Assembly: GCA_019347645.1 (NCBI GenBank)
Contig: JAHWKZ010000003.1
Coordinates: 1 to 38,951 of the forward strand
DNA: 38,951 bases
DNA from: Gemmatimonadota bacterium
GTDB taxonomy: Bacteria; Gemmatimonadota; Gemmatimonadetes; JACCXV01; JAHWKZ01
Direction: 5' to 3'
The position numbers and the translations under genes are program-made. The notes under the pieces were generated by a model that worked only from the letters and a program-made list of their open reading frames with translations, was not told where the DNA came from and did not search any database. Position 1 is the first letter of the stretch, and every line of letters begins with the position of its first letter. This document shows, one piece after another, positions 5,412 through 18,979 of this stretch.

Positions 5412-6863
5412 TCACCCTTTGACGACCCCGAGCGGAACGAGCCGGGCGACGCGACGACTGATCCCCGCCTCCTCCATCACGGCCACGACGTCGGCGACGT
5501 CCTTGTAGGCGTGGGACATCTCCTCGGCCACGGTTCGCATGCCCGTGGCACGGACGATCACGCCCTGCTCCTCCATCTCCTTCAGGAGGTCGCGTCCTCT
5601 GGACTCCTTCTTCGCCCGGGTGCGGCTCATCCGCCGCCCGGCGCCGTGACAGGTGGATCCGAACGTCTCCTTCATCGCCGCGGACTGCCCGGCGCAGACG
5701 TAGGAGTAGTTTCCCATGCTGCCGGGGACGAGGACCGGCTGTCCGGTCTCTCGATACGCGGCGGGGACCTCTTCATGGCCCGGCGGGAATGCGCGGGTGG
5801 CCCCCTTGCGATGGACGCAAACGCGCCTGCGCTCGCCGTCGATCTCGTGGTCCTCCACCTTCGCGATGTTGTGGCAGACGTCGTAGACGAGGTCCATGCG
5901 GAGATCGGCGGGGCCCGAGCCCAGGACCTTCTGGAACGTCTCCCGGGTTTTGTGGAGCATCACCTGGCGGTTGCACCACGCGTAGTTCGCCGCGCACCGC
6001 ATCGCGCCCAGATAGGCCTCGCCCTCCTCGGAGTCGAGCGGCGCGGCCGCCAGCTGCACGTCCGGCAGGTCGTAGCCGTAGACCGGGAGCTTCGACTTGA
6101 TGCGCTTGATGAAGTCGTCGCAGATCTGGTAGCCGAAGCCGCGCGATCCGGAGTGGATCATCACGACGACCTGGCCCTCGAACAGCCCGAACGCGCTCCC
6201 CAGCGACTCGTCGTAGATCTTCGAGACCTTCTGCACCTCGAGGAAGTGGTTGCCGCTCCCGAGGGTCCCCACCTGGGTGAGGCCGCGCTCCTTGGCACGA
6301 TCGGAGACGGCGTCGGGGTCGGCTCCCTCCATGCGTCCGCCCTCCTCGGTATGATCGAGGTCGGCCGGGGAACCGAAGCCCTCCTCGATCGCCCATCGCG
6401 CGCCTTGCCTCAGGAGCTTCCGCTCGTCGGCCGTCGAGAGCCTCTCGATCGCCCCCTCGCTGCCGACGCCGCTGGGGACGGCGTCGAAGAGCGCATCCAT
6501 GAGCGTTCGCAACCGCGGGGTCCCCAGCGAGTCGGCCTCCACCTCGCTGCGGGCGAGACGGACCCCGCAGTTGATGTCGTAGCCGACGCCGCCGGGGGAG
6601 ATCGCACCCGAGTCCGCCTCGGTGGCGGCGACGCCGCCGATGGGGAAGCCGTACCCCCAGTGGATGTCGGGCATCGCCAGCGAGGCGCCGAGGATCCCGG
6701 GCAGGCAGGCGACGTTCTTGACCTGCACGAGGCTCTCGTCCGCCCGGATGTCGTCGATCATCTCGTCGGAGGCGTACACCCGCCCGGGGACCCGCATCGG
6801 CCCCTCCTTCGGGATCTCCCAGACGTATGGAGCGATCTTCTCGATTCTGACGTCGGCTCCCAT
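5412..6863 (-). CDS. rtcB: RtcB family RNA-splicing ligase
   Basis: MPDIHWGYGFPIGGVAATE...GGVGYDINCGVRL...HSGSRGFGYQICDDF...STCHGAGRRMSRTRAKK. Confidence 0.95.
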   Translation of the reverse strand: MGADVRIEKIAPYVWEIPKEGPMRVPGRVYASDEMIDDIRADESLVQVKNVACLPGILGASLAMPDIHWGYGFPIGGVAATEADSGAISPGGVGYDINCGVRLARSEVEADSLGTPRLRTLMDALFDAVPSGVGSEGAIERLSTADERKLLRQGARWAIEEGFGSPADLDHTEEGGRMEGADPDAVSDRAKERGLTQVGTLGSGNHFLEVQKVSKIYDESLGSAFGLFEGQVVVMIHSGSRGFGYQICDDFIKRIKSKLPVYGYDLPDVQLAAAPLDSEEGEAYLGAMRCAANYAWCNRQVMLHKTRETFQKVLGSGPADLRMDLVYDVCHNIAKVEDHEIDGERRRVCVHRKGATRAFPPGHEEVPAAYRETGQPVLVPGSMGNYSYVCAGQSAAMKETFGSTCHGAGRRMSRTRAKKESRGRDLLKEMEEQGVIVRATGMRTVAEEMSHAYKDVADVVAVMEEAGISRRVARLVPLGVVKG

Positions 6864-6872
6864 CCTCCCCCC

Positions 6873-7298
6873 TCAGACGTCGAAGATGACGCGGGCGCGC
6901 CACTCCCCGTCGGCTTCCGCGAACCGCAGCTGGTGCCAGGTCACCGCCTTCAGCTCGCTCGCCCGAGCGACCCGCGCCCGGGGCGGCCGGGCGCCCCGGA
7001 CCACCGCCCGCAACGTCCCCGGCCCGGAGGCCTCCACGTCGGCCTCGACCGCGACGAACCCGTCCTCTTCGAGGAGCCGGTAGATCGACTCGCACCACGC
7101 CTTCAGGAGCTCGGGATATCCCTCCTCCCGGAGCTCGACGCTCCGCTCCTCGCGCGGCTCCACGTCCGGGTCCTCGCCGAAGAGGACCCGGACGAGGCCC
7201 CGCAGGGCGGCTTCCAGGACGGCGGCCGGTGAAGAGCCCTCGAGTTCGAGCCCGAGGTCGGCGGTGTGTTCGATCTCGGCGAAGCGGCCGCGCTCCAC
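6873..7298 (-). CDS. Archease, RtcB cofactor
   Basis: EIEHTADLGLELEGSSPAAVLEAALRGLVRVLFG...VTWHQLRFAEADGEWRARVIFDV; upstream of rtcB in the same direction. Confidence 0.88.
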   Translation of the reverse strand: MERGRFAEIEHTADLGLELEGSSPAAVLEAALRGLVRVLFGEDPDVEPREERSVELREEGYPELLKAWCESIYRLLEEDGFVAVEADVEASGPGTLRAVVRGARPPRARVARASELKAVTWHQLRFAEADGEWRARVIFDV

Positions 7299-7382: not shown

Positions 7383-8438
7383 TCAGGCCACCGCGAAGCC
7401 CCGTTCCGCCTCGATCGGGAGGATCTCCCGGAGCTCTTCGATCCGGTTCAGGATCCGCTCCGCCTCCGAGGACGCGCCCAGCTCACGGTAGCACATCCGC
7501 GCGTGACGGTAGGTGTCGATGGCGCGAGGGGTGTCGTTCTGCGCGCAGTAGAGGCGCGCGATCGTCACCCACGTCTCCGCCTCGACGAGCGGGGCCTGTC
7601 GGTCGGAGCTGAGGTCGAGCGCCTGGCGAAGGAAGCGCGTCGCCCCGACGAAGTCGTTCAACTCGAGGCTCACCTCGCCCATCAGGCAGAGCGCGCTGGC
7701 GGCCGCCGGTTTGTAGTCGCGCTCCCGCGCGAGATCGAGCGCGGAGCGCGCCAGCGACAGCGCCAGGTGCGGCCGATCCCGGTCCAGCTCCAGCCGCGCC
7801 CGATTGATCGAGACGGTCGTCCCCAGGAACCGGTCCCCCTGGCGCTCGGCCTCCCGCAGGGCGTCCTGGAACGCGGACTCGGCTTCGATGAACCGCCGCT
7901 CGGCGGCGAGGACCAGGCCCAGGTTGTTCATGGTGCGGGCCGGCTCGAACAGCTGGGGGTCCAGGCCGACCTCCGCGAGCTTGCCGGCGACGTACTCCGC
8001 GGCCTCCCGCTCCCCCCGAGCGGCCAGCATGGCCCCTTCGTTGTTCTCGATCTGGGCCAGCAGACGCCGGTCGTCCGCCTCCCGGGCGTGTCGACGCGCC
8101 TCGCGGTACAGCTGGCGCGCGAAGAACCAGTCGCCGCGCTCGAACTCGACCGCGGCGAGGCCGTTGAACGCCTTGCCGATCAGGCTGTTGTCCCGGATCG
8201 CTTCGGCGGCCGCCAGGCTGGCCTCGTACGCCTCCTGCGCGCCGTCCCAGTCCGACATCGCCAGTCGGCAGATCCCCGCGCCCCGGAGCGCGTCGGCACG
8301 GACCGCTCCGGCCCGCGGGTCTCTCTCCGCCTGTCCGGCGATCTCCACGTAGGCCTTCAGCGCCTCTTCGAAACGGCCCTCCTGGCGCGCTGCGTCCGCG
8401 CGGGCCACGGAGAGCCGATCTGACCCGAGGCCCGCCAT
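7383..8438 (-). CDS. TPR-repeat protein (paralogue 1)
   Basis: Repeats with AFNGLAAVEFERGDWFFARQLYREA, TMNNLGLVLAAERRFIEAESAFQDAL; TGATG coupled to the lipoprotein gene upstream. Confidence 0.85.
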   Translation of the reverse strand: MAGLGSDRLSVARADAARQEGRFEEALKAYVEIAGQAERDPRAGAVRADALRGAGICRLAMSDWDGAQEAYEASLAAAEAIRDNSLIGKAFNGLAAVEFERGDWFFARQLYREARRHAREADDRRLLAQIENNEGAMLAARGEREAAEYVAGKLAEVGLDPQLFEPARTMNNLGLVLAAERRFIEAESAFQDALREAERQGDRFLGTTVSINRARLELDRDRPHLALSLARSALDLARERDYKPAAASALCLMGEVSLELNDFVGATRFLRQALDLSSDRQAPLVEAETWVTIARLYCAQNDTPRAIDTYRHARMCYRELGASSEAERILNRIEELREILPIEAERGFAVA

Positions 8439-8965
8439 CAGTCGAGGCAGATGGCGTAGAGGGAGAAGTGCTCGATCGGGACGACGACCGCGCCCAGGCT
8501 TTCGTCGTACGCGCCGCCGATCACCGTCCAGTCGTTCCCCTCGTCGGAGGCCCCGGCGATCGCGAGGCGGGCCGGGTCCACGCCCAACGCCTCGGGATCC
8601 ACCTGGATCGTCAGCGTGGCGGCCGTGTCGAACGTCAGGCCGCTCGGGCCGAACTTGTACCTGAACTGGTCGGTCTCACGTCCCTTCATGGAGATGGAGA
8701 CCTCCTGGACAAGCGCCCCGCTGGGGACATCGAGGCGACCGCCGTCGACGGAGATCGAGCCCCCGTGCGGGCCGATCTTCTGGACCACCGTCTGGGAGGC
8801 GATCTTCAGCCCGCCGGGGACGACGAGCAGGTCGACGCCGTTGACGGTGACCGTCCGGGGTGCCGGCTGCGGGACCCCGGTCGGACCGGGATCGGACTCG
8901 CAGGCGGTGAAGACGAGCGCGAGGGCGAGCGCCGTGGCGCCGTGGATGATCGAACGTAGGGTCAT
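8438..8965 (-). CDS. Secreted lipoprotein with ZU5-like domain (paralogue 1)
   Basis: Lipobox-like ALALVFTACESD; IGPHGGSISVDGGRLDVPSGALVQEVSISMK resembles the ZU5 core; C-term HFSLYAICLD. Confidence 0.75.
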   Translation of the reverse strand: MTLRSIIHGATALALALVFTACESDPGPTGVPQPAPRTVTVNGVDLLVVPGGLKIASQTVVQKIGPHGGSISVDGGRLDVPSGALVQEVSISMKGRETDQFRYKFGPSGLTFDTAATLTIQVDPEALGVDPARLAIAGASDEGNDWTVIGGAYDESLGAVVVPIEHFSLYAICLD

Positions 8966-8987: not shown

Positions 8988-9539
8988 CTACCGGACGCAG
9001 AGGGCGTAGCGCGAGAAGTGCTGGATCTCGACGGACACCGAGTTGGCGGCCGCATCGTATGCGCCGCCGACCACCTGCCAGTCGTCCACGTCGTCGTGGG
9101 CGCCGGCGATCGCGAGCTGCGACGGGTCGATCCCGTCGAGATTCGCTTTGTCGGCCGAGATCGTGAGCACCGCCGCCGGGTCGAACTGCAACCCGTTGGG
9201 GCCGAACTTGAACGACACGTAGCCGTCGTTTTCGGCCTTCATGGTGATCGTCACGTCGTCCGGGATCGATCCCGGGACCACCTCCAGAGAGGCGTCCTTG
9301 TTGCTGATCGTGGCGCCGTCCTGCGCGTTCACCCGCTGCGCCGTCGCAGCATTGTTCGCGACGAACAGCCCGCGCTGGCTGGGGACCACGGTGACGAGTC
9401 GCACGCCGTTGACCTGTACGGTCGGAGAGGCGTCCGGTGGATTGGGAGTGACCGGCACATCGGTCGTCTCGCACGCGGCGAGACCGAGGATGGCCAGCCC
9501 GAGGACCGCCCGAGTGAAGGGCTTGAGGAAGTGGATCAT
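8988..9539 (-). CDS. Secreted lipoprotein with ZU5-like domain (paralogue 2)
   Basis: AILGLAACETTD lipobox; SLEVVPGSIPDDVTITMK; FKFGPNGLQFDPAAVLTISADKANLDGIDPSQLAIAGAHDDVDDWQVVGGAYD; C-term HFSRYALCVR; GAGGAGG SD upstream. Confidence 0.8.
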   Translation of the reverse strand: MIHFLKPFTRAVLGLAILGLAACETTDVPVTPNPPDASPTVQVNGVRLVTVVPSQRGLFVANNAATAQRVNAQDGATISNKDASLEVVPGSIPDDVTITMKAENDGYVSFKFGPNGLQFDPAAVLTISADKANLDGIDPSQLAIAGAHDDVDDWQVVGGAYDAAANSVSVEIQHFSRYALCVR

Positions 9540-9601: not shown

Positions 9602-9696
9602 GTCGGGCGGCCCGGCCGTCCGTCCGGAAGACTTCTCCGGCGAGGACCCGTCGGCTTTGCGCCCCCCGCTCTCACGGGGTTTGCCCTTTTCCGAGG
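9602..9696 (-). promoter_or_regulatory. GEMM-I / cyclic di-GMP-I riboswitch aptamer A
   Basis: RNA: CUCGGAAAAGGGCAAACCCCGUGAGAGCGGGGGGCGCAAAGCCGACGGGUCCUCGCCGGAGAAGUCUUCCGGACGGACGGCCGGGCCGCCCGA. Conserved GGGCAAACC and CGCAAAGCC, GAGA-loop hairpin, P3 arm, P1 closure UCGG/CCGA. Confidence 0.85.
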
Positions 9697-9719
9697 ACGT
9701 CGTCGCGCCCTATTAGCAA

Positions 9720-9735
9720 TGCAATCCACGTACCA
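9720..9735 (-). promoter_or_regulatory. Sigma-54 (-24/-12) promoter A
   Basis: Minus strand TGGTACGTGGATTGCA; GG-N10-GC spacing; one mismatch to TGGCACGN4TTGCW; predicted start G at ~9709, 13 nt before the aptamer. Confidence 0.75.
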
Positions 9736-9921: not shown

Positions 9922-11529
9922 TCAGGAGCGGGAGAGCTCCTCGTCGATCAAATCGGCGGAAACCTCGGGGAGCGAAGCGAACGTCTGGGCGAGCTCCTCC
10001 GGGCGCATGGCGCGCCCGGTGGCCGTCTTCTTCCCCACCCGATCCTTCCCGAACGACTCCCGGCGGGCGATCTCGACGAAGACGCCGGTGATCTCGGGAT
10101 CGGAGAGCGTCCCCCCGCTCATCTCGAGGTAGGTGAGGGTCTGCTCCCGGCTCCAGGGGTCGCGATAGGGACGGGCCGTACTCAGGGCGTCGAAGACGTC
10201 CGCGATCAGCAGGATCCGGGCCCCGAGGGGGATCCTCTCGCCCGCGAGGCCGTCGGGATAGCCCGTGCCGTCGTAGCGCTCGTGGTGGCCCCGGATCATC
10301 GACTCCACGTCCCACGGGAGTTCGAATCGCTTCAGGTGCTCGACCGCCAGCTCGGGGTGACGCTGGATCTCGGCCATCTCCCGCTCCGTCAACCGCCCTT
10401 CCTTGTTGAGGATCGCGGAATCGATCTCCAGCTTTCCGATGTCGTGGAGGTACCCGGCGACCAGGATCCCCTTCATCTGGTCGGGGCCGAACCCGAGGTC
10501 GCAGGCGATCGCCACCGCGTACTCGGCGACCCGGGCGCTGTGACCGTACAGGTAGGCCCCGCCGCGGGACTCCACCTGCCGCCCGAGCCGCTCGACGAGC
10601 TGCACGACCAGCGTCTCGAGGTCCCCGATCTTCTCCTCGAGGTCGGCCAGGTCGTGGGCCGCCTCCAGGAGCCGGAACAGCTTGAGGCTCCGGGCGAAGC
10701 TCTCCAGCGCGCTCCGATGCCTTCCTTTGGAGAGGTGGAGGTGGCCGAGCTCGCGCAGCGCCTCGGCCTCGGTGAGCGGAGCGTCCAGCTTCCTCCCCTG
10801 CCGGGCCGCCCGCTCGAAGTGCGCCCGGGCGAGTGCGATCTTGCCGCTCTTGCGAAAGATCTCGCCGTAGTGGCGGTACGCCTCCGCGATCCCCAGGGCG
10901 TCGTTCACCACCGTCAGCCGCTCGACCGCCTCGTCACAAGCGTCCCTCGCCTCGGACAGGCGCTCGGCTTCGATCTCGACCTCGGCGGCGTTCAGCGCGA
11001 TCAGTCCCACCAGCGCGTCATCGCCCGCCTCGATGGCGAGCCGGCGCGCCATGCGGTAGGAGCGGCTCGCCCCGCTCCAGCGCTTCTGGTCGGCGAGCAG
11101 GATCCCGAGGTTGTTCAGGGCCTGGGCCTCGCCGGCGAGGTCGCCGGCGCGATGGTGCGCGCGGCGCCCCTTCCAGTAGTACTCGAGGGCCCTCTCGAAG
11201 CGGCCGCGAACGTTGGCGACCGCTCCCAGGTTCAGCAGGGCGGCTCCCATCGCGGACGCGGAGTCGAGGGCGCGGGCGACTTCGAGCGCGTCCAGGAAGC
11301 GGCGTTCGGCGTCCCGGAGGTTGCCGCGCTCGAACTCCACGATCCCCAGCTCCGACAGGAACTCGGTGGTGGCGGACGCGGCTCCGTCAAGGACCGCCTG
11401 ACGCAGCCCGAGCACGGCACAGGCCTCGGCCTCGGACCAGCGGGCCTCGCGGCGGGCGGTGGAGGCCTTCTGCCGCAGGGCGGAAAGGGTCGGTCGGGGC
11501 GCTCCCCAGTGGTACGTCCGGAACGGCAT
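9922..11529 (-). CDS. TPR + HD-GYP protein (predicted cyclic dinucleotide phosphodiesterase)
   Basis: N-terminal TPRs (ALNNLGILLADQKRW); YLHDIGK...HHERYDGTGYPDGLAGE...ILLIADVFDALSTARPYR is a full HD-GYP signature. Confidence 0.92.
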   Translation of the reverse strand: MPFRTYHWGAPRPTLSALRQKASTARREARWSEAEACAVLGLRQAVLDGAASATTEFLSELGIVEFERGNLRDAERRFLDALEVARALDSASAMGAALLNLGAVANVRGRFERALEYYWKGRRAHHRAGDLAGEAQALNNLGILLADQKRWSGASRSYRMARRLAIEAGDDALVGLIALNAAEVEIEAERLSEARDACDEAVERLTVVNDALGIAEAYRHYGEIFRKSGKIALARAHFERAARQGRKLDAPLTEAEALRELGHLHLSKGRHRSALESFARSLKLFRLLEAAHDLADLEEKIGDLETLVVQLVERLGRQVESRGGAYLYGHSARVAEYAVAIACDLGFGPDQMKGILVAGYLHDIGKLEIDSAILNKEGRLTEREMAEIQRHPELAVEHLKRFELPWDVESMIRGHHERYDGTGYPDGLAGERIPLGARILLIADVFDALSTARPYRDPWSREQTLTYLEMSGGTLSDPEITGVFVEIARRESFGKDRVGKKTATGRAMRPEELAQTFASLPEVSADLIDEELSRS

Positions 11530-11533
11530 CACC

Positions 11534-11596
11534 TTACCGGACGCAGAGCGCATAGCGGATCGCCCGCGGCATCGTGTTCGGCCACAGAATCGACAT
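11534..11596 (-). CDS. 20-aa micro-ORF MSILWPNTMPRAIRYALCVR
   Basis: GGAGG 7 nt before the ATG, TGATG overlap with the upstream TPR gene, TAA a few nt before the HD-GYP ATG; C-term RYALCVR identical to lipoprotein tails at 8988 and 12715. Confidence 0.5.
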   Translation of the reverse strand: MSILWPNTMPRAIRYALCVR

Positions 11597-12642
11597 CACG
11601 GCACCTCCATCGTGGGGGCTTCGAGCGCGGCCAGGCGCCTCTCGAGCCGCTCGGCTTCCGCCGTCGACCCGAGGGAGAGGTAGCATCGTCGAGATTGCCG
11701 CAATGCCCGTGCCGCTTCGTCGAACCGCTCCCGAGCGAGCTCGAGCTCCGCGAGCTCCGTCCAGGTCTCGGCCTCGGCCAGTGGCACGCGTCCGTCGGCG
11801 CTCCGTTCCAGCGCCTCTCGGAGGCAGGCGCGAGCCTCGTCCCAACGGCCTCCGGCGCGGGCGACCGCGCCCTGGAGGCAGACGGCGTCGGCGGCCAGCG
11901 GACCGTTCCCCAGCCGGGCGGCGATCTCGGCCGCCGTCGCCGCGACCGCGTGCGCCCGGATCGGCTCGTCGATGACGAGCGCGAGCCGGCCGCGGTTGAT
12001 CATCACCGTGGCGGCGAGCGTCAAGTCTCCGGTGCGCTTGCATTCCTCCAGCGCCCGGCCGTAGAACGCGTCCGCCTCGGCGACGCGGCCGTCCTCCATC
12101 AGGATCATTCCGAGGTTGTTCATGGCGCGCGCCCCGCACGGATGCCTCTCGAGCTCCTCGAAGTGTCGAAGGGCCCGGCGGAAGTGCTCCTCGGACCGCG
12201 CACGTTCGCCTCGGGCGGCCCACAGGGCGCCTTCGTTGTTCTCGATCTCCATCAGCAGGGAGAGATCCTCGACGCCTCCGGCGCTTTCGCGCGCGGCGCG
12301 GTAGCGGCGCTCGGCTTCCTCCCAGTTGCCGCGCTCGAACTCGAGCGCTCCCCGGGCGTTGTCGGCCAGCGCCAGCCGTCCGGCGTCTCCCATGCGCTCG
12401 GCGATCAGCCGACTCTCGGCCAGGTCGCGGAGCGCCTCCTGCCACTCGCCGAGGCGGATCCGGACGATCGCCGCGCCCCGAAGCGCGTCGGCTTCGGCGG
12501 CGGCCCCTTCCGGATGGAACCGGGCCGTCTCGACCGCGTCCTGGTAGGCGGTCAGGGCCTCTTCCCATCGCTCGCTCCGAGCGGCCGCCTCGGCGCGGGC
12601 GATCGCCGCGCGTGGCGTTTTGCTATCGTGTTCCTCGATCAT
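11596..12642 (-). CDS. TPR-repeat protein (paralogue 2)
   Basis: ARGALEFERGNWEEAERRYRAA, AMNNLGMILMEDGRVAEADAFYGRAL; same plan as 7383-8438. Confidence 0.85.
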   Translation of the reverse strand: MIEEHDSKTPRAAIARAEAAARSERWEEALTAYQDAVETARFHPEGAAAEADALRGAAIVRIRLGEWQEALRDLAESRLIAERMGDAGRLALADNARGALEFERGNWEEAERRYRAARESAGGVEDLSLLMEIENNEGALWAARGERARSEEHFRRALRHFEELERHPCGARAMNNLGMILMEDGRVAEADAFYGRALEECKRTGDLTLAATVMINRGRLALVIDEPIRAHAVAATAAEIAARLGNGPLAADAVCLQGAVARAGGRWDEARACLREALERSADGRVPLAEAETWTELAELELARERFDEAARALRQSRRCYLSLGSTAEAERLERRLAALEAPTMEVP

Positions 12643-12714: not shown

Positions 12715-13269
12715 CTACCGGACACAGAGGGCGTAGCGCGAGAAGTGGAGGATCGGAACGGTAACGCTGTTGGTGAGCGGATCGTAGATCCCGCCGATCA
12801 CCTGCCAGTCGTCCACATCGTCCGAGGCCCCCGCGATCGCCAGCCTCGTCGGATCGATGTCGTCGAGGTCCGCCTTGTCGGCCGAGATGATCAGGGTCGC
12901 CGCCGGGTCGAACACCAGGCCGTTCGGGCCGAACTCGAAGCCCAGGATGTCGTCCTCGTCCTCCACCTCCATCCTGATAGTGGTGGCCTCGGGAATGGAG
13001 TTGGGCTGGACGATGAGCTGAGCGTCCTCGGCCGTCAGGGTCGCGCCTTCGGATACGTCCACCAGATCGACCTCCACCTCGTCATCGGCGAGGAACAGAC
13101 CGCGGGCCTCCGGCCGGACGGTGACGAGCTGCACGCCGTTGAAGGTCACGGTCGGTGGATCCGCCTCCGGCGCCGCGGGGGTGAAGCCCTGATCCTCGCA
13201 TGCGACGAGTCCGAGCACGGCCAGGGCGAGGATCGCCCGGCGGAAGGGCTTGATGAGGGAGCGGGTCAT
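12715..13269 (-). CDS. Secreted lipoprotein with ZU5-like domain (paralogue 3)
   Basis: AVLGLVACEDQG lipobox; FEFGPNGLVFDPAATLIISADKADLDDIDPTRLAIAGASDDVDDWQVIGGIYD; C-term HFSRYALCVR. Confidence 0.8.
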   Translation of the reverse strand: MTRSLIKPFRRAILALAVLGLVACEDQGFTPAAPEADPPTVTFNGVQLVTVRPEARGLFLADDEVEVDLVDVSEGATLTAEDAQLIVQPNSIPEATTIRMEVEDEDDILGFEFGPNGLVFDPAATLIISADKADLDDIDPTRLAIAGASDDVDDWQVIGGIYDPLTNSVTVPILHFSRYALCVR

Positions 13270-13331
13270 TTGGCGACCTCCTCAGGGTTGGAACGATGTC
13301 CGCCCCGGCGAGTTCCGGAGTCGGGACGATC

Positions 13332-13428
13332 GCTCGGGCGGCCCGGCCGTCCGTCCGGATGGCTTCTCCGGCGAGGACCCGTCGGCTTTGCGCCCCCCGC
13401 TCTCACGGGGTTTGCCCTTGACCGAGGA
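13332..13428 (-). promoter_or_regulatory. GEMM-I / cyclic di-GMP-I riboswitch aptamer B
   Basis: RNA: CCUCGGUCAAGGGCAAACCCCGUGAGAGCGGGGGGCGCAAAGCCGACGGGUCCUCGCCGGAGAAGCCAUCCGGACGGACGGCCGGGCCGCCCGAG; P1 CUCGG/CCGAG; same core as aptamer A. Confidence 0.85.
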
Positions 13429-13464
13429 TGTCGTCGGCCCCATGACGGGGCCGCCCTACTCTTC

Positions 13465-13480
13465 AGCAACCTTCGTACCA
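13465..13480 (-). promoter_or_regulatory. Sigma-54 (-24/-12) promoter B
   Basis: Minus strand TGGTACGAAGGTTGCT; GG-N10-GC spacing; predicted start G at ~13454. Confidence 0.75.
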
Positions 13481-13687: not shown

Positions 13688-15079
13688 TCAGGAGGGGGTT
13701 TCGGCGGGCTCCAGGTCGTACTTGTCGATCTTCCGCAGCAGTCGGGGACGGCTGATCTCGAGCTCCCGCGCGGTCTGGGACTTGTTCCATTCGTTGCGCT
13801 CGAGCGCGTGGGCGATGACCTGGCGCTCGAACTCGTCGAACGGGAGCCCCTCCGGCGGGAGCTCGATGACCAGTCGGTCGACCTCGTCCCCCGCCGTGCG
13901 CCGGCTCCGGTCGGACCCGGCCACGTTGGGAAGCGTGATCCGGGGGCCCTCCCCGAGCAGCACCGCGCGCTCGATGGTGTTCTTGAGCTCGCGAATGTTT
14001 CCGGGCCATGAATAGGCGTGGAGGAACTCGCGGGACTCCTTCGATAGAGGCCGGTCGGGTTTGCCGTACTGTTCCGCGTAGCGCGCGGCGAAGTGCTCGG
14101 CGAGCAGCTCCACGTCGTCGCCTCGCTCCCTGAGGGGGGGCAGCTCCACCGCGACGACGTTGAGGCGGTAATAGAGGTCGCTACGGAAGAGCCCCTGTCC
14201 GATCGCCTGCTCCAGGTCGCGGCTCGTCGCCGCGATGATCCGCATGCTGACCGATACCTCTCGGGTGCCCCCGAGCCGACGGAAGCGCTTCTCCTCGATC
14301 GCCCGCAACAGCTTTCCCTGGAGGTTCAGCGACATGTCGCCGAGCTCGTCGAGGAACAACGTGCCGCCGTCGGCGAGCTGGAGGAGACCCGGCTTGGACG
14401 ACTTGGCGTCGGTGAAGGCGCCTTTCTCGTAGCCGAAGAGCTCCGCCTCGAGGAGGTTCTCGGGGATGGCGGTGCAGTTCACCTCGATGAACGGCTGGTC
14501 GTGCTGCGCCGACTGGTAGTGGATCGCCCGGGCTACGAGCTCCTTGCCGGTCCCGGTCTCGCCGCGGATGAGTACGGTCCTGGCACCCGACTCGATCACC
14601 TTGCGTACCACGCCGAGAACGCCCCGCATCGCCTCGCAGCGGGCGATCATGTCGGGGAATCCGAGCAGGGTGATCGGGCCCTCCCTGGACGTACCGTCCC
14701 CGTTGCCCCAGAGCTCGAGCTTCGTCTCGACCACCGCCTCCCCGATCCGTTCCCGGTCGCGTGGCAAAATGCAGTACTCGTCGGCGCCGGCGGTGAGAGC
14801 GTGGACGGCCGAATCGGTGGACGGATCGCGGGTCACGGCCACCACCCGCGGCCGCTCCGACAGCGCGTTCAGCTCGGCCAGGATCCGGTCGACCTCCTCC
14901 CCCACGTAGTCGAGGTCGAGGACTACGAAGCGCGGCAGCGGCGAGAGCTTGGGATCGCCGACGGAAGCCTCGCGGTGGACGAACACGCACTCGATCGATT
15001 CCTCGGACGGGACCAGGTCCACGTATTCGGCCGCGGGGCCGAAGACGGCCACGTGGAGAGGGATCGGCGATCGCGCCAT
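13688..15079 (-). CDS. Sigma-54-dependent transcriptional activator with degenerate receiver, AAA+ and Fis-type HTH
   Basis: VLIRGETGTGKELVARAIHYQS (Walker A), GYEKGAFTDAKSSKPGLLQLADGGTLFLDELGD, LFRSDLYYRLNVV, NKSQTARELEISRPRLLRKI (HTH). Confidence 0.93.
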   Translation of the reverse strand: MARSPIPLHVAVFGPAAEYVDLVPSEESIECVFVHREASVGDPKLSPLPRFVVLDLDYVGEEVDRILAELNALSERPRVVAVTRDPSTDSAVHALTAGADEYCILPRDRERIGEAVVETKLELWGNGDGTSREGPITLLGFPDMIARCEAMRGVLGVVRKVIESGARTVLIRGETGTGKELVARAIHYQSAQHDQPFIEVNCTAIPENLLEAELFGYEKGAFTDAKSSKPGLLQLADGGTLFLDELGDMSLNLQGKLLRAIEEKRFRRLGGTREVSVSMRIIAATSRDLEQAIGQGLFRSDLYYRLNVVAVELPPLRERGDDVELLAEHFAARYAEQYGKPDRPLSKESREFLHAYSWPGNIRELKNTIERAVLLGEGPRITLPNVAGSDRSRRTAGDEVDRLVIELPPEGLPFDEFERQVIAHALERNEWNKSQTARELEISRPRLLRKIDKYDLEPAETPS

Positions 15080-15184: not shown

Positions 15185-16753
15185 TCATTCCGCTTCCGGC
15201 TCTCCCCAACCCCCGCCGCCCGGGGTCTCGACCACCAGCCGGTCCCCGACCTCGAGCCGGAACTCGGCCTTGCCGGGCAGCTCCTCGGCCCGCTCGCCTC
15301 GGAGCCTCCAATTCGCCCCCGGAGCGCCCGCGACCCCTCCGGCCAGGCCCCACGGGCCGCGTCTGCGGCGATCGGAGAGGATCGTCCCCTCCAGGGGCGA
15401 GAGCGCCTCGATCTCGCGCACCAGGCCGTCTCCGCCCGGTCGACGTCCGGCCCCACCGCTTCCCCGGCGATAGGCGTAGCGCCGGACCCGGACCGGCAGG
15501 GCGCGCTCGAGGGCCTCGATCGGCGAGTTGAGGCTGTTCGTCATGTGGGTGTGCAGGCCCGAAGCGCCGGGACCGTCCGGGTGGCCGCCGGCTCCGCCCG
15601 CCACCGTCTCGTAGTAGGTGAACGGGTGACCGTCGTCCTTCAGCCCGCCGAAGGCCAGGTTGTTCATCGTCCCCTGGCTCGCCCCCGGAATCCGGTCGGG
15701 GATCGCCCCGGCGAGGGCGCCGAGGAGCGCGTCGACGATCCGCTGGCTCGTCTCCACGTTGCCGGCGGCCACTGGTCGACCCCAGCCCGGCCGAAGCAGC
15801 GACCCCTCCGGGACCTCGATCACGAACGGGGCCAGCACCCCGTCGTTCGCCGGAGCGTCCTCCTCGAGGAGCGCCCGGACCACGTAGAACACCGCGCTTC
15901 GGACGATCGCCGGATTGGCGTTGAGGGGTCCCTCCACCGCGGGATCCGTGCCCCCGAAGTCGACCCGGGCCGTCTCCCCGTCGATCTCGACGGTGACCCG
16001 GATCGCCACGTCCCGGGCGCCCCGACCATCGTCGTCGAGCACGTCCTCGAAGTGGTAGGCGCCGTCGGGAATCCCCGCCAGCAGGCCCCGGACGAGGCGC
16101 GCGGCGTAGTCGACGAGCGCCTGGCCCATCGCCTCGATCCGGCCCTTGCCGTAGCGATCCACCAGCGCGCGGAGCCGCCGCTCGCCGGTGGCGAGGCTGG
16201 CCAGCTGCGCGGCGAGGTCGCCGGACCGCTCCTCCGGCGTCCGAACGTTCGCCAGCAGGTGGCGCCACGTAGGTTCGACCCGCGAGCCGCCACGCATCAA
16301 GCGGACGGGCGGAAGAACGACTCCCTCCTCGTACACGTCGCCGGTCAGCGGCATGGAGCCGGCGGTGCGTCCGCCCACGTCGGCGTGGTGGGCCCGGTTG
16401 GCGAGCCAGAAGGCGGGGGTCTCGTCCCCTTCGAGCCACACTCCCTGCACCAGCGTCAGGTCCGGCAGGTGGGTGCCACCCGCGCTCGGATCGTTCAGGA
16501 TCGCGACGTCGGCGGGCTGCAGCTCCATGGCACCGCGGGCCGCCGCGACCGAGAGGGGCATCGATCCCAGGTGGACCGGCATGTGGTCCCCCATCGCGAT
16601 CGTGGTCCCGTCGGCCCCGTAGAGCGCGCACGAGTAGTCCCGCCGCTCCACCACGTTGGGGCTGTGGGCGGTGCGCTGGAGGACGACACCCATCTCCTCC
16701 GTCAGCGCCACGAACAGGTCCCGGAAGACCCCCAGGTCGAGGGGCAGGCTCAC
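15185..16753 (-). CDS. Hydantoinase B / 5-oxoprolinase-type protein
   Basis: MGVVLQRTAHSPNVVERRDYSCALYGADG...GDHMPVHLGSMP...ILNDPSAGGTHLPDLTLV...GGAGGHPDGPGASGLHTHMTNSLNSPIE; GTG start overlaps the upstream stop. Confidence 0.9.
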   Translation of the reverse strand: MSLPLDLGVFRDLFVALTEEMGVVLQRTAHSPNVVERRDYSCALYGADGTTIAMGDHMPVHLGSMPLSVAAARGAMELQPADVAILNDPSAGGTHLPDLTLVQGVWLEGDETPAFWLANRAHHADVGGRTAGSMPLTGDVYEEGVVLPPVRLMRGGSRVEPTWRHLLANVRTPEERSGDLAAQLASLATGERRLRALVDRYGKGRIEAMGQALVDYAARLVRGLLAGIPDGAYHFEDVLDDDGRGARDVAIRVTVEIDGETARVDFGGTDPAVEGPLNANPAIVRSAVFYVVRALLEEDAPANDGVLAPFVIEVPEGSLLRPGWGRPVAAGNVETSQRIVDALLGALAGAIPDRIPGASQGTMNNLAFGGLKDDGHPFTYYETVAGGAGGHPDGPGASGLHTHMTNSLNSPIEALERALPVRVRRYAYRRGSGGAGRRPGGDGLVREIEALSPLEGTILSDRRRRGPWGLAGGVAGAPGANWRLRGERAEELPGKAEFRLEVGDRLVVETPGGGGWGEPEAE

Positions 16754-18723
16754 GATCGCGCTTCCAGGACGAGGTCGCCGTGGCGGGTTACTCGCCACGC
16801 CCAGCCCGGGGGAACGACCGCGGTCGCGTGGTCGCCGAAGACCACGGCCGGCTCGTCGCTCGCGTGGCCGACGGGGAGGGCGGCCCACTCCCAGGCCGCC
16901 ACCTCGACCGACTCTCCCCGGCGAAGGCCAATCGCGCGCCGGTCCGGGCGGCCCGCCGCGGCGGGGGCGTGCTCGGGGAGCGCGGGCGCGGCGGTCGTCC
17001 CGACGGCCGCCACGCGCACGGCGACGATCTCGGCCGGCGCCTCGGGGCGAGCGTAGCCGTACCGCTCGCGGTGGTGCCGGTGGAAGGCCTCCACGGGGGC
17101 CGCGTCGGCTCGCCACGCGACGTCGGTCTCGTAGGCCTGACCGCGGTAGCGCATCGCCAGCGAGCGTACGGTCGTCCGCCGTCCGGGCGGCACCCGCTCG
17201 CGATCGAGCGCCTTTCCCGCTTCGGCCTCCAGCTCCTCGAAGGCCTCCTCCAGACGCTCGGGCGGCCACGCCTCAGCCGGCTCCAGCAGCGTGCGGGCGA
17301 AATCGAGGCGGGCGTCGGCGGCGAGGCACCCGAGCGCGGAGAGCACGCCGGCGGCGCGCGGGACCAGGACCCGGCCGCCGCCGAGGGCGCGCGCCAGGGT
17401 GGCGGCGTGGAGGCCTCCGGCGCCGCCGAACGCGACGAGCGTCGAGTCGGAGGGATCGTGGCCGCGCTCCAGAGTCACCCGCCGCACCGCCCGCTCGAGG
17501 TGCGAGCGGGCGAGCTCGAGGATGGCACCGGCCGTCTCCTCCAGGGAGGCGCCCAGGGGAGCCGCCAGGGACCGGATCGAGCGACGCGCGGCGGCGACGT
17601 CGAGGCGGCGCCGACCACCCAGGAAGAGATCGGGGTGGAGGTGGCCGAGGACCAGGTGGGCGTCGGTCACGGTCGGCCGCTCTCCCCCCGATCCGTAGCA
17701 GGCCGGGCCCGGAACCGCCCCGGCGCTCTCGGGTCCCACCGTCAGCGCTCCGGCGGCGTCGACCCGGGCGATCGAGCCGCCGCCCGAGCCGACGGTGTGG
17801 ATATCGACCATCGGCAGCCTGAGCGGCACCCCGTCGAGATCGGCCTCGGTCGTCCGCTCGATCTCCCCCGGCACGACCGCCACGTCGCACGAGGTCCCTC
17901 CCATGTCCAGGGTGACGAGTCGGTCGAACCCCGCGGCCCGGGCCACGACCCGGGCTCCGACCACGCCGGCGGCGGGGCCGGACAGGATCGTCCCGACCGG
18001 GCGAGACGCCGCTTCGGCGGCGCTCGCCATCCCGCCGTTCGAGAGCATGACCCGGAAGTCGTCGGCGGCCAGCTCCTCCTCGAGGGCGAGGAGGTATCCC
18101 TCGACCACCGGCGCGAGCCCGGCCGAGACGACGGCCGTCGCCCACCGCTCGTACTCCCGCGGTTCGGCCGTGACCGAGTGGCTGGCGACGACGGGGACGG
18201 GCGCCCCGCCGAGGGCCTTCACGACGCGGCGCTCGAGGTCGGGATGACGGGCCGAGTGGAGGAGCGCCACCACGACCGCCTCGGCGCCCGCCTGCAGGAG
18301 CGTCTCCAGCGCCGCCCGGGCATCGTCGGGATCGAGCGGGGCGACCTCCTTTCCGTCGGCCCCCACCCGCGCGGCGATCCCCCGCACCCGCTCGGGGGCC
18401 ACGAGCCGCCGGGCGGGCTCGGGGCGCAGGGTGTAGAGGCGGATCCGGGTCTGGCGAGCGATGGAGAGGACGTCCTCCAGACCCTCCTGGGTGACCATGC
18501 CGACGGCGGCGGTCCTTCCCTCGAGGAACGCGTTCGTGGCCACCGTGAAGCCGTGGACGACGCGGGTGACCCCTCGACCGCCGGCCAGCTCGCGCACCGC
18601 CTCGACCACCGCCCTCGACGGGCGGTCCGGAGTGGACGGGAGTTTGTGGAAGGCGAGGGAGCCGTCACGCCTTTCGGCGACGGCGTCGGTGAAGGTGCCG
18701 CCCGCGTCGACGCCGACGCGCAG
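16750..18723 (-). CDS. Hydantoinase A / 5-oxoprolinase-type protein; start uncertain
   Basis: RVGVDAGGTFTDAVAERRDGS...HGFTVATNAFLEGR...LDMGGTSCDVAVV...VAFGGAGGLHAATLARALG. Confidence 0.88.
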   Translation of the reverse strand: MRVGVDAGGTFTDAVAERRDGSLAFHKLPSTPDRPSRAVVEAVRELAGGRGVTRVVHGFTVATNAFLEGRTAAVGMVTQEGLEDVLSIARQTRIRLYTLRPEPARRLVAPERVRGIAARVGADGKEVAPLDPDDARAALETLLQAGAEAVVVALLHSARHPDLERRVVKALGGAPVPVVASHSVTAEPREYERWATAVVSAGLAPVVEGYLLALEEELAADDFRVMLSNGGMASAAEAASRPVGTILSGPAAGVVGARVVARAAGFDRLVTLDMGGTSCDVAVVPGEIERTTEADLDGVPLRLPMVDIHTVGSGGGSIARVDAAGALTVGPESAGAVPGPACYGSGGERPTVTDAHLVLGHLHPDLFLGGRRRLDVAAARRSIRSLAAPLGASLEETAGAILELARSHLERAVRRVTLERGHDPSDSTLVAFGGAGGLHAATLARALGGGRVLVPRAAGVLSALGCLAADARLDFARTLLEPAEAWPPERLEEAFEELEAEAGKALDRERVPPGRRTTVRSLAMRYRGQAYETDVAWRADAAPVEAFHRHHRERYGYARPEAPAEIVAVRVAAVGTTAAPALPEHAPAAAGRPDRRAIGLRRGESVEVAAWEWAALPVGHASDEPAVVFGDHATAVVPPGWAWRVTRHGDLVLEARS

Positions 18724-18736
18724 GGCGCGGTGCGGA

Positions 18737-18979
18737 TCAGGCAGGCTCGAGCTCGATCTCCGCGTCCGCGGGGACCTGCTCGCCGATCGCGCGGTCGGGC
18801 TCGAGCGGGCGCGGACCGTCCGCGCTCCGCCACACCAGCGCCACGGCGCTCTCGCCCGGTCCGCCGAAGTAGAGCGAGAGCAGCGCGGGAACCTGTGCCG
18901 CCGGCGTCGCCGGATCCACCGCGTGACACACCGCCCGCTCGCCACGGGCGAAGACGAGCGGGATCTCTCCCCCCGTCAC
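18737..18979 (-). CDS. Small hypothetical protein (80 aa)
   Basis: VTGGEIPLVFARGERAVCHAVDPATPAAQVPALLSLYFGG...; GTGA overlap with the upstream gene; fits the operon spacing. Confidence 0.6.
   Translation of the reverse strand: MTGGEIPLVFARGERAVCHAVDPATPAAQVPALLSLYFGGPGESAVALVWRSADGPRPLEPDRAIGEQVPADAEIELEPA

Follow-up and report, generated by a model that had tools for sequence, protein, structure and literature searches.

The window, i.e. the whole 38,951-nt stretch of DNA analyzed here, comes from a genome of the phylum Gemmatimonadota and contains two closely similar c-di-GMP-I (GEMM-I) riboswitches, A and B, the second of which carries an additional hairpin at its predicted 5′ terminus. 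What do these riboswitches control, and does the hairpin contribute to that control?

A cmscan of the entire window gave exactly two Rfam matches above threshold, both to the c-di-GMP-I family RF01051 (gathering threshold 35 bits). Aptamer B (13426-13334, minus strand) scores 47.9 bits (E = 1.7e-6) and aptamer A (9695-9603, minus strand) 52.9 bits, so that both are far beyond chance. B aligns with the 87-position model over its full length (1-87) without truncation, having the three-helix architecture of the family, and the scan confirms the initial annotation of this element as GEMM-I. We regard copy B as a genuine c-di-GMP-I riboswitch of an ordinary class in an informative context. A and B are the only GEMM-I riboswitches found in the 1.42-Mb assembly, which is ~55% complete.

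The two aptamers differ in detail. The P1 helix that closes the aptamer by the ligand pocket has 5 bp in B (CUCGG/CCGAG) and 4 bp in A (UCGG/CCGA), and B does therefore have the better P1, as first described. The P3 loop is GAAGCCA in B and GAAGUCU in A while the CCGGA/UCCGG stem is identical in both, an observation that had been read as consistent with selection on structure. Stronger support for that view comes from the leaders as a whole. The aptamers are 95.7% identical and the expression platforms 93.7%, compared with 61% protein identity and 60% identity at four-fold degenerate sites in the genes downstream. Since the identity of the leaders is so far above that of the four-fold sites, they appear either to be under strong constraint or to have been homogenized by gene conversion. 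The 5′ hairpin of B falls outside this stretch. The P3 internal loop of B departs from the RF01051 consensus, being CCUC/CGGAC in place of CUAA/UAUG. We note that the same divergent letters are present in A, in contig G002:C29 and in part in G004:C193, where G002 and G004 are same-family relatives that also carry riboswitches.

Position 10 of the RF01051 model, which we take to be equivalent to G20 of the Vc2 riboswitch, is G in both A and B. G20 is a selectivity factor among cyclic dinucleotides (PMC9262584). The ligand of both copies is therefore predicted to be c-di-GMP rather than cGAMP. Among 69 riboswitches of the class, 15 have A at the corresponding position, a variant linked to the sensing of cGAMP, and 10 have C.

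Both riboswitches begin 25-40 nt behind a match to the sigma-54 consensus TGGYAC-N5-TTGC at -24/-12, another respect in which B is unlike a standard RF01051 member. The pattern occurs four times in the assembly, and two of the four sites lie just upstream of the only two riboswitches. There are 11 such sites in G002 and five in G004; three of these (in G002:C29, G002:C4 and G004:C193) are placed 49-50 nt ahead of an aptamer. By our own estimate (~20 sites, ~11 Mb of strand and 12 riboswitches) ~0.001 coincidences of site and riboswitch would be expected, and five are observed. The number of sites is about equal to that of a reversed control pattern, so the evidence for these promoters lies in the placement of the sites and not in their number. 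From the established spacing of sigma-54 promoters the predicted +1 of B is G13454, 12 nt after the C of the -12 element, placing the hairpin at +2 to +20; that of A is 9709. A search for sigma-54 itself gave no match in the 55%-complete assembly but did find it in G002 and G004.

The gene directly upstream of promoter B encodes an NtrC-type sigma-54 activator, and its product is a candidate activator of both predicted promoters. The rtcBA operon carries the sigma-54 activator RtcR, and the window is similar in that a sigma-54 activator adjoins sigma-54 promoters and archease and RtcB genes. However, the N-terminus of the activator in the window is receiver-like, its score of 317.6 bits is below the 650-bit cut-off of the RtcR model, and two riboswitch-lipoprotein modules lie between. 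Further upstream on the same strand are hydantoinase/oxoprolinase A and B genes (15185-18945). Both G002 and G004 have a close homologue of the activator from which the whole AAA+ domain is missing (L129 4176-4763, minus strand; L130 446-982, plus strand). The N-termini of these homologues are ~47% identical to that of the window activator and their HTH domains 54-57% identical.

Table 1. Features of the two riboswitch-led modules, in window coordinates.
Feature	Position	Strand	Basis or detail
Sigma-54 activator, NtrC-type	13688..15079	-	receiver-like domain, AAA+, Fis HTH; directly upstream of promoter B
Predicted sigma-54 promoter B, TGGTACG-AAGG-TTGC (-24/-12)	13466..13480	-	TGGYACN5TTGC match
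Extra 5′-terminal hairpin of B, CGGCCCC-GUCAU-GGGGCCG	13435..13453	-	7 bp; predicted +2 to +20
Anti-Shine-Dalgarno strand B, CGAC-A-UCCUCGG	13422..13433	-	3′ half CUCGG is the P1 5′ strand
Aptamer B P1 3′ strand, CCGAG	ends at 13333	-	sequence
Platform stem-loop between aptamer and ribosome site	13294..13332	-	folding
Shine-Dalgarno sequence of B, AGGAGG	13277..13282	-	sequence
LpB, 184-aa lipoprotein, ZU5-like beta fold	12715..13269	-	AlphaFold model pLDDT 80.5; ankyrin ZU5 3f59
TPR protein	11596..12642	-	domain match
TPR + HD-GYP protein	9922..11553	-	HD_5 1.3e-34; HDIGK ... HHERYDGTGYP
Predicted sigma-54 promoter A, TGGTACG-TGGA-TTGC	9721..9735	-	TGGYACN5TTGC match
Anti-Shine-Dalgarno strand A, CGAC-G-UCCUCGG	9691..9702	-	complementarity, folding
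LpA, LpB paralogue	8988..9539	-	alignment; 61% aa identity
LpC, third paralogue	8438..8965	-	alignment; 42% identical to LpB
TPR protein downstream of LpC	7383..8438	-	domain match
Archease	6873..7298	-	PF01951, 3.5e-26
RtcB RNA ligase	5412..6863	-	PF01139, 6e-177

The expression platform and the operon, neither of which was part of the initial annotation, suggest how the riboswitch might work. In B the sequence CUGAGGA (13285-13279) that includes part of the Shine-Dalgarno (SD) sequence is complementary to UCCUCGG, and GUCG (13277-13274) is complementary to CGAC. Thus the 5′ strand of P1 doubles as an anti-SD strand, a property outside the RF01051 description, and ligand-stabilized formation of P1 would be expected to free the ribosome site. 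A platform stem-loop is predicted between the aptamer and the SD, and is also found in A, where one pair is kept by a U-A to U-G change. In transcripts extending to the start codon the anti-SD helix forms with a probability of 0.999 in A and 0.67 in B, and forcing the formation of P1 costs 8.3 and 6.6 kcal/mol more, respectively. In this model ligand binding could pay for a preference of 6.6-8.3 kcal/mol for the OFF state. The predicted number of pairs between the SD region and the P1 strand is 8.0 for A, 7.7 for B, 8.8 for G002:C29 and 5.3 for G004:C193, compared with 1.2-1.9 in shuffled sequences; shuffling of the 5′ segment gave the observed number in 1, 2, 1 and 4 of 100 leaders, respectively. 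These four leaders from two genera are two pairs of close sequences, and thus amount to about two independent cases. Over the class as a whole anti-SD pairing at p <= 0.05 is found in only 7 of 57 leaders. This rejects it as a class-wide mechanism, and it appears to be mainly a feature of the sigma-54 leaders of this riboswitch family.

We therefore predict from the folding model that A and B are translational ON switches. An alternative is that the riboswitch acts in the other direction or at another level (i.e. is an OFF switch, or exerts transcriptional or Rho-dependent control), in which case the complementarity to the SD would be incidental. Both ON and OFF switches are known among GEMM-I riboswitches (PMC9262584), and the SD has a further possible pairing partner in the first part of the reading frame. 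When 30 nt of coding sequence are included the model favors that pairing over both ON and OFF states, and with P1 forced the SD is 0.26-0.37 unpaired in transcripts to the start codon, and less so in A when coding sequence is present. Yet the platform stem-loop is not followed by a U-tract in either A or B, which rules out an intrinsic terminator as the platform, whereas in other members of the class a terminator arm is formed by the 3′ strand of P1, and the anti-SD pairing recurs in the four leaders. We consider this alternative unlikely. Two contigs of another genome (G008:C3 and G008:C36; L042, L043) have three tandem c-di-GMP-I riboswitches per leader, with terminators of the type GCTGGCGGC-TTTT that are complementary to the P1 3′ strand. 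As a predicted translational ON switch, B may be compared with two known riboswitches. Vc2 of V. cholerae also switches through P1 at the translational level, but it is an OFF switch (PMC9262584), and the predicted sign of B is the opposite because ligand-bound P1 frees the SD. The pilM riboswitch of Geobacter is an ON switch with a GEMM-I aptamer, as B is predicted to be, but it is transcriptional, sensing cGAMP and blocking a terminator (PMC9262584); for B c-di-GMP is predicted, and no terminator is seen.

The hairpin that distinguishes B is placed upstream of the aptamer, just after the predicted start site. As was first noted, it is absent from A, and it is one base pair longer than described, with seven uninterrupted pairs and a folding energy of -14.8 kcal/mol. 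When A and B are aligned, it shows as 15 inserted nt that separate GGGCG from CGACGAC in B. One explanation for it is a neutral insertion without function, with A and B behaving alike, and we give this slightly less than an even chance. The hairpin is not conserved, being absent from A and from both closest relatives of the same architecture, G002:C29 and G004:C193. A stem as good is found in 441 of 20000 shuffles of the leader (2.2%) and in 2.5% of 33-mers of the GC-rich window, and the folding energy of the leader has p = 0.115; taken alone, the hairpin is only modestly beyond chance. Nor are 5′ hairpins enriched upstream of GEMM-I aptamers across the class: the 68 leaders tested were no more structured than control stretches (Wilcoxon p 0.20). 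Against neutrality, the seven pairs begin at the predicted +2, GGCCCC-N5-GGGGCC occurs once in the assembly, and G002:C4, a further riboswitch of the family behind a sigma-54 site, carries an unrelated 6-bp stem at +3. The stem of B is the strongest among the sigma-54 GEMM-I leaders examined. Because the motif is unique in the assembly, an origin from a repeat family is ruled out.

The energy model gives no support to the idea that folding of the riboswitch is tuned by the hairpin. The difference in energy between ON and OFF states with and without the hairpin is 6.6 and 6.5, 5.8 and 6.4, and 4.5 and 5.2 kcal/mol for three transcript lengths, i.e. deletion changes the switching energy by just 0.1, 0.6 and 0.7 kcal/mol, as would also be expected of a neutral insertion. 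A different way in which the hairpin could affect ligand sensing is by formation of a competing fold, in which the 5′ arm GGGCGGCCC would capture GGGCCGCCC at the aptamer base, impede folding of the aptamer and raise the ligand threshold of B over that of A. The complementarity is exact over 9 nt, the competing fold is the minimum-energy structure for one transcript length, and the local hairpin makes up only ~0.46-0.67 of the ligand-free ensemble in transcripts that end no more than 12 nt after the start codon. However, such complementarity is cheap in GC-rich RNA, and the local hairpin is very stable and can fold ahead of its competitor as the RNA is being made. Once 30 nt of coding sequence are included, it remains intact at 0.997. 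We find this explanation improbable. Still less probable is that the inverted repeat acts in the DNA as an operator, bound by a repressor or some other protein. It is a perfect dyad that overlaps the initially transcribed region and is a unique site, but a regulator would usually have a second site in the genome, where none is found in the assembly, and the dyad was not found at the related promoters.

The initial annotation had also raised an effect on stability, and it is possible that the hairpin tunes the stability of the mRNA. With a stem beginning at the predicted +2 there would be a single unpaired 5′ nucleotide, as in a 5′-terminal stabilizer. Purified RppH of B. subtilis, a bacterium of another phylum, requires at least two unpaired 5′ nucleotides (PMC3997798), and 5′-terminal stems stabilize several E. 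coli mRNAs, according to references listed in the same paper. The ompA and papA stem-loops among those listed resemble that of B in placing a stable stem at the 5′ end with almost no unpaired leader, but in B the stem is upstream of a riboswitch and its effect on decay is putative. RNase E/G is encoded in the source genome. Taking these points together, protection of the 5′ end of the mRNA is the most specific functional proposal, and the likeliest role if there is any; neutral insertion is at least as likely. The hairpin is thus real, small and unproven.

The genes that follow B in order encode LpB, a TPR protein and a TPR-HD-GYP protein, and those that follow A encode LpA, LpC, a TPR protein, archease and RtcB. 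None of the lipoproteins in the window has a Pfam match above cut-off, but a relative has a weak match to ZU5, and the LpB model aligns with the ankyrin ZU5 domain 3f59 (E 3e-4, TMt 0.58). A first protein search of named genomes found no relatives of LpB, whereas an alignment-based search of relatives found some. In one riboswitch-led run (L123 6094-9553) there are five tandem ZU5-like lipoprotein genes; the lipoprotein family expands with the switch. The HD-GYP protein has both the fold and the HDIGK and HHExxDGxGYP motifs, and is probably a c-di-GMP phosphodiesterase.

In G002:C29 a sigma-54 site and riboswitch are followed by genes for a TPR protein, five lipoproteins and a TPR-HD-GYP protein, adjoining a PAS-GGDEF-EAL gene. 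Judged by its gene content, the cassette is shared by two genera that carry it at different loci, and this suggests negative feedback on c-di-GMP. The loci of G002 and G004 that are orthologous to the window contain regulator, TPR, archease and RtcB genes, the regulators being the homologues without AAA+ domains. A sigma-54 site lies between the regulator and TPR genes in G002, and no riboswitch was found at either locus.

These observations can be put together in the following way. Copy B would be transcribed from its sigma-54 promoter. In the absence of ligand the SD region would be paired with the P1 5′ strand and the sequence next to it on the upstream side, in a helix of 7 and 4 bp interrupted by one mismatch. 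The loop closed by this helix would contain the other helices of the aptamer and the platform hairpin, and LpB would not be translated. On binding c-di-GMP, P1 would form, taking back its 5′ strand and releasing the ribosome site. The operon would then produce the ZU5-like lipoprotein, the TPR protein and the HD-GYP phosphodiesterase, the last of which would lower c-di-GMP. Provided that the switch has the predicted ON sign and that one transcript covers these genes, c-di-GMP would induce the enzyme that degrades it. The 5′ hairpin would be a separate element, whose single unpaired 5′ nucleotide would slow 5′-end-dependent decay of the B mRNA relative to that of A; any effect would thus be on mRNA decay and not on ligand sensing. 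We consider that this account of a sigma-54-transcribed translational ON switch with a separate 5′ hairpin has slightly better than an even chance of being correct. A fuller version, in which paralogous ON switches share aptamer and platform and have their outputs set by a 5′-end cap and not by affinity, with a sigma-54 gate and an HD-GYP feedback arm, is doubtful.

Of the 61 genomes searched, 25 contain GEMM-I riboswitches, with 69 copies between them. Among 84,980 genomes a pattern combining a sigma-54 site with the GEMM-I core was present in 32 contigs, and 27 of these have aptamers confirmed with Rfam (L071-L102). The confirmed contigs come from Deltaproteobacteria-type lineages, Rokubacteria, Nitrospirota, Myxococcota, Ignavibacteria, Armatimonadetes and Gemmatimonadota.

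A literature search found no paper naming both c-di-GMP riboswitches and Gemmatimonadetes, so the regulon appears to be undescribed. The combination of sigma-54 promoter and riboswitch would provide two-input control. The riboswitch-led genes include a probable c-di-GMP-degrading enzyme, making the feedback loop directly testable, and A and B form a natural experiment, being near-identical switches that differ mainly by the 5′-terminal hairpin. The coupling of sigma-54 with GEMM-I recurs in several phyla, and could be followed as a general design.
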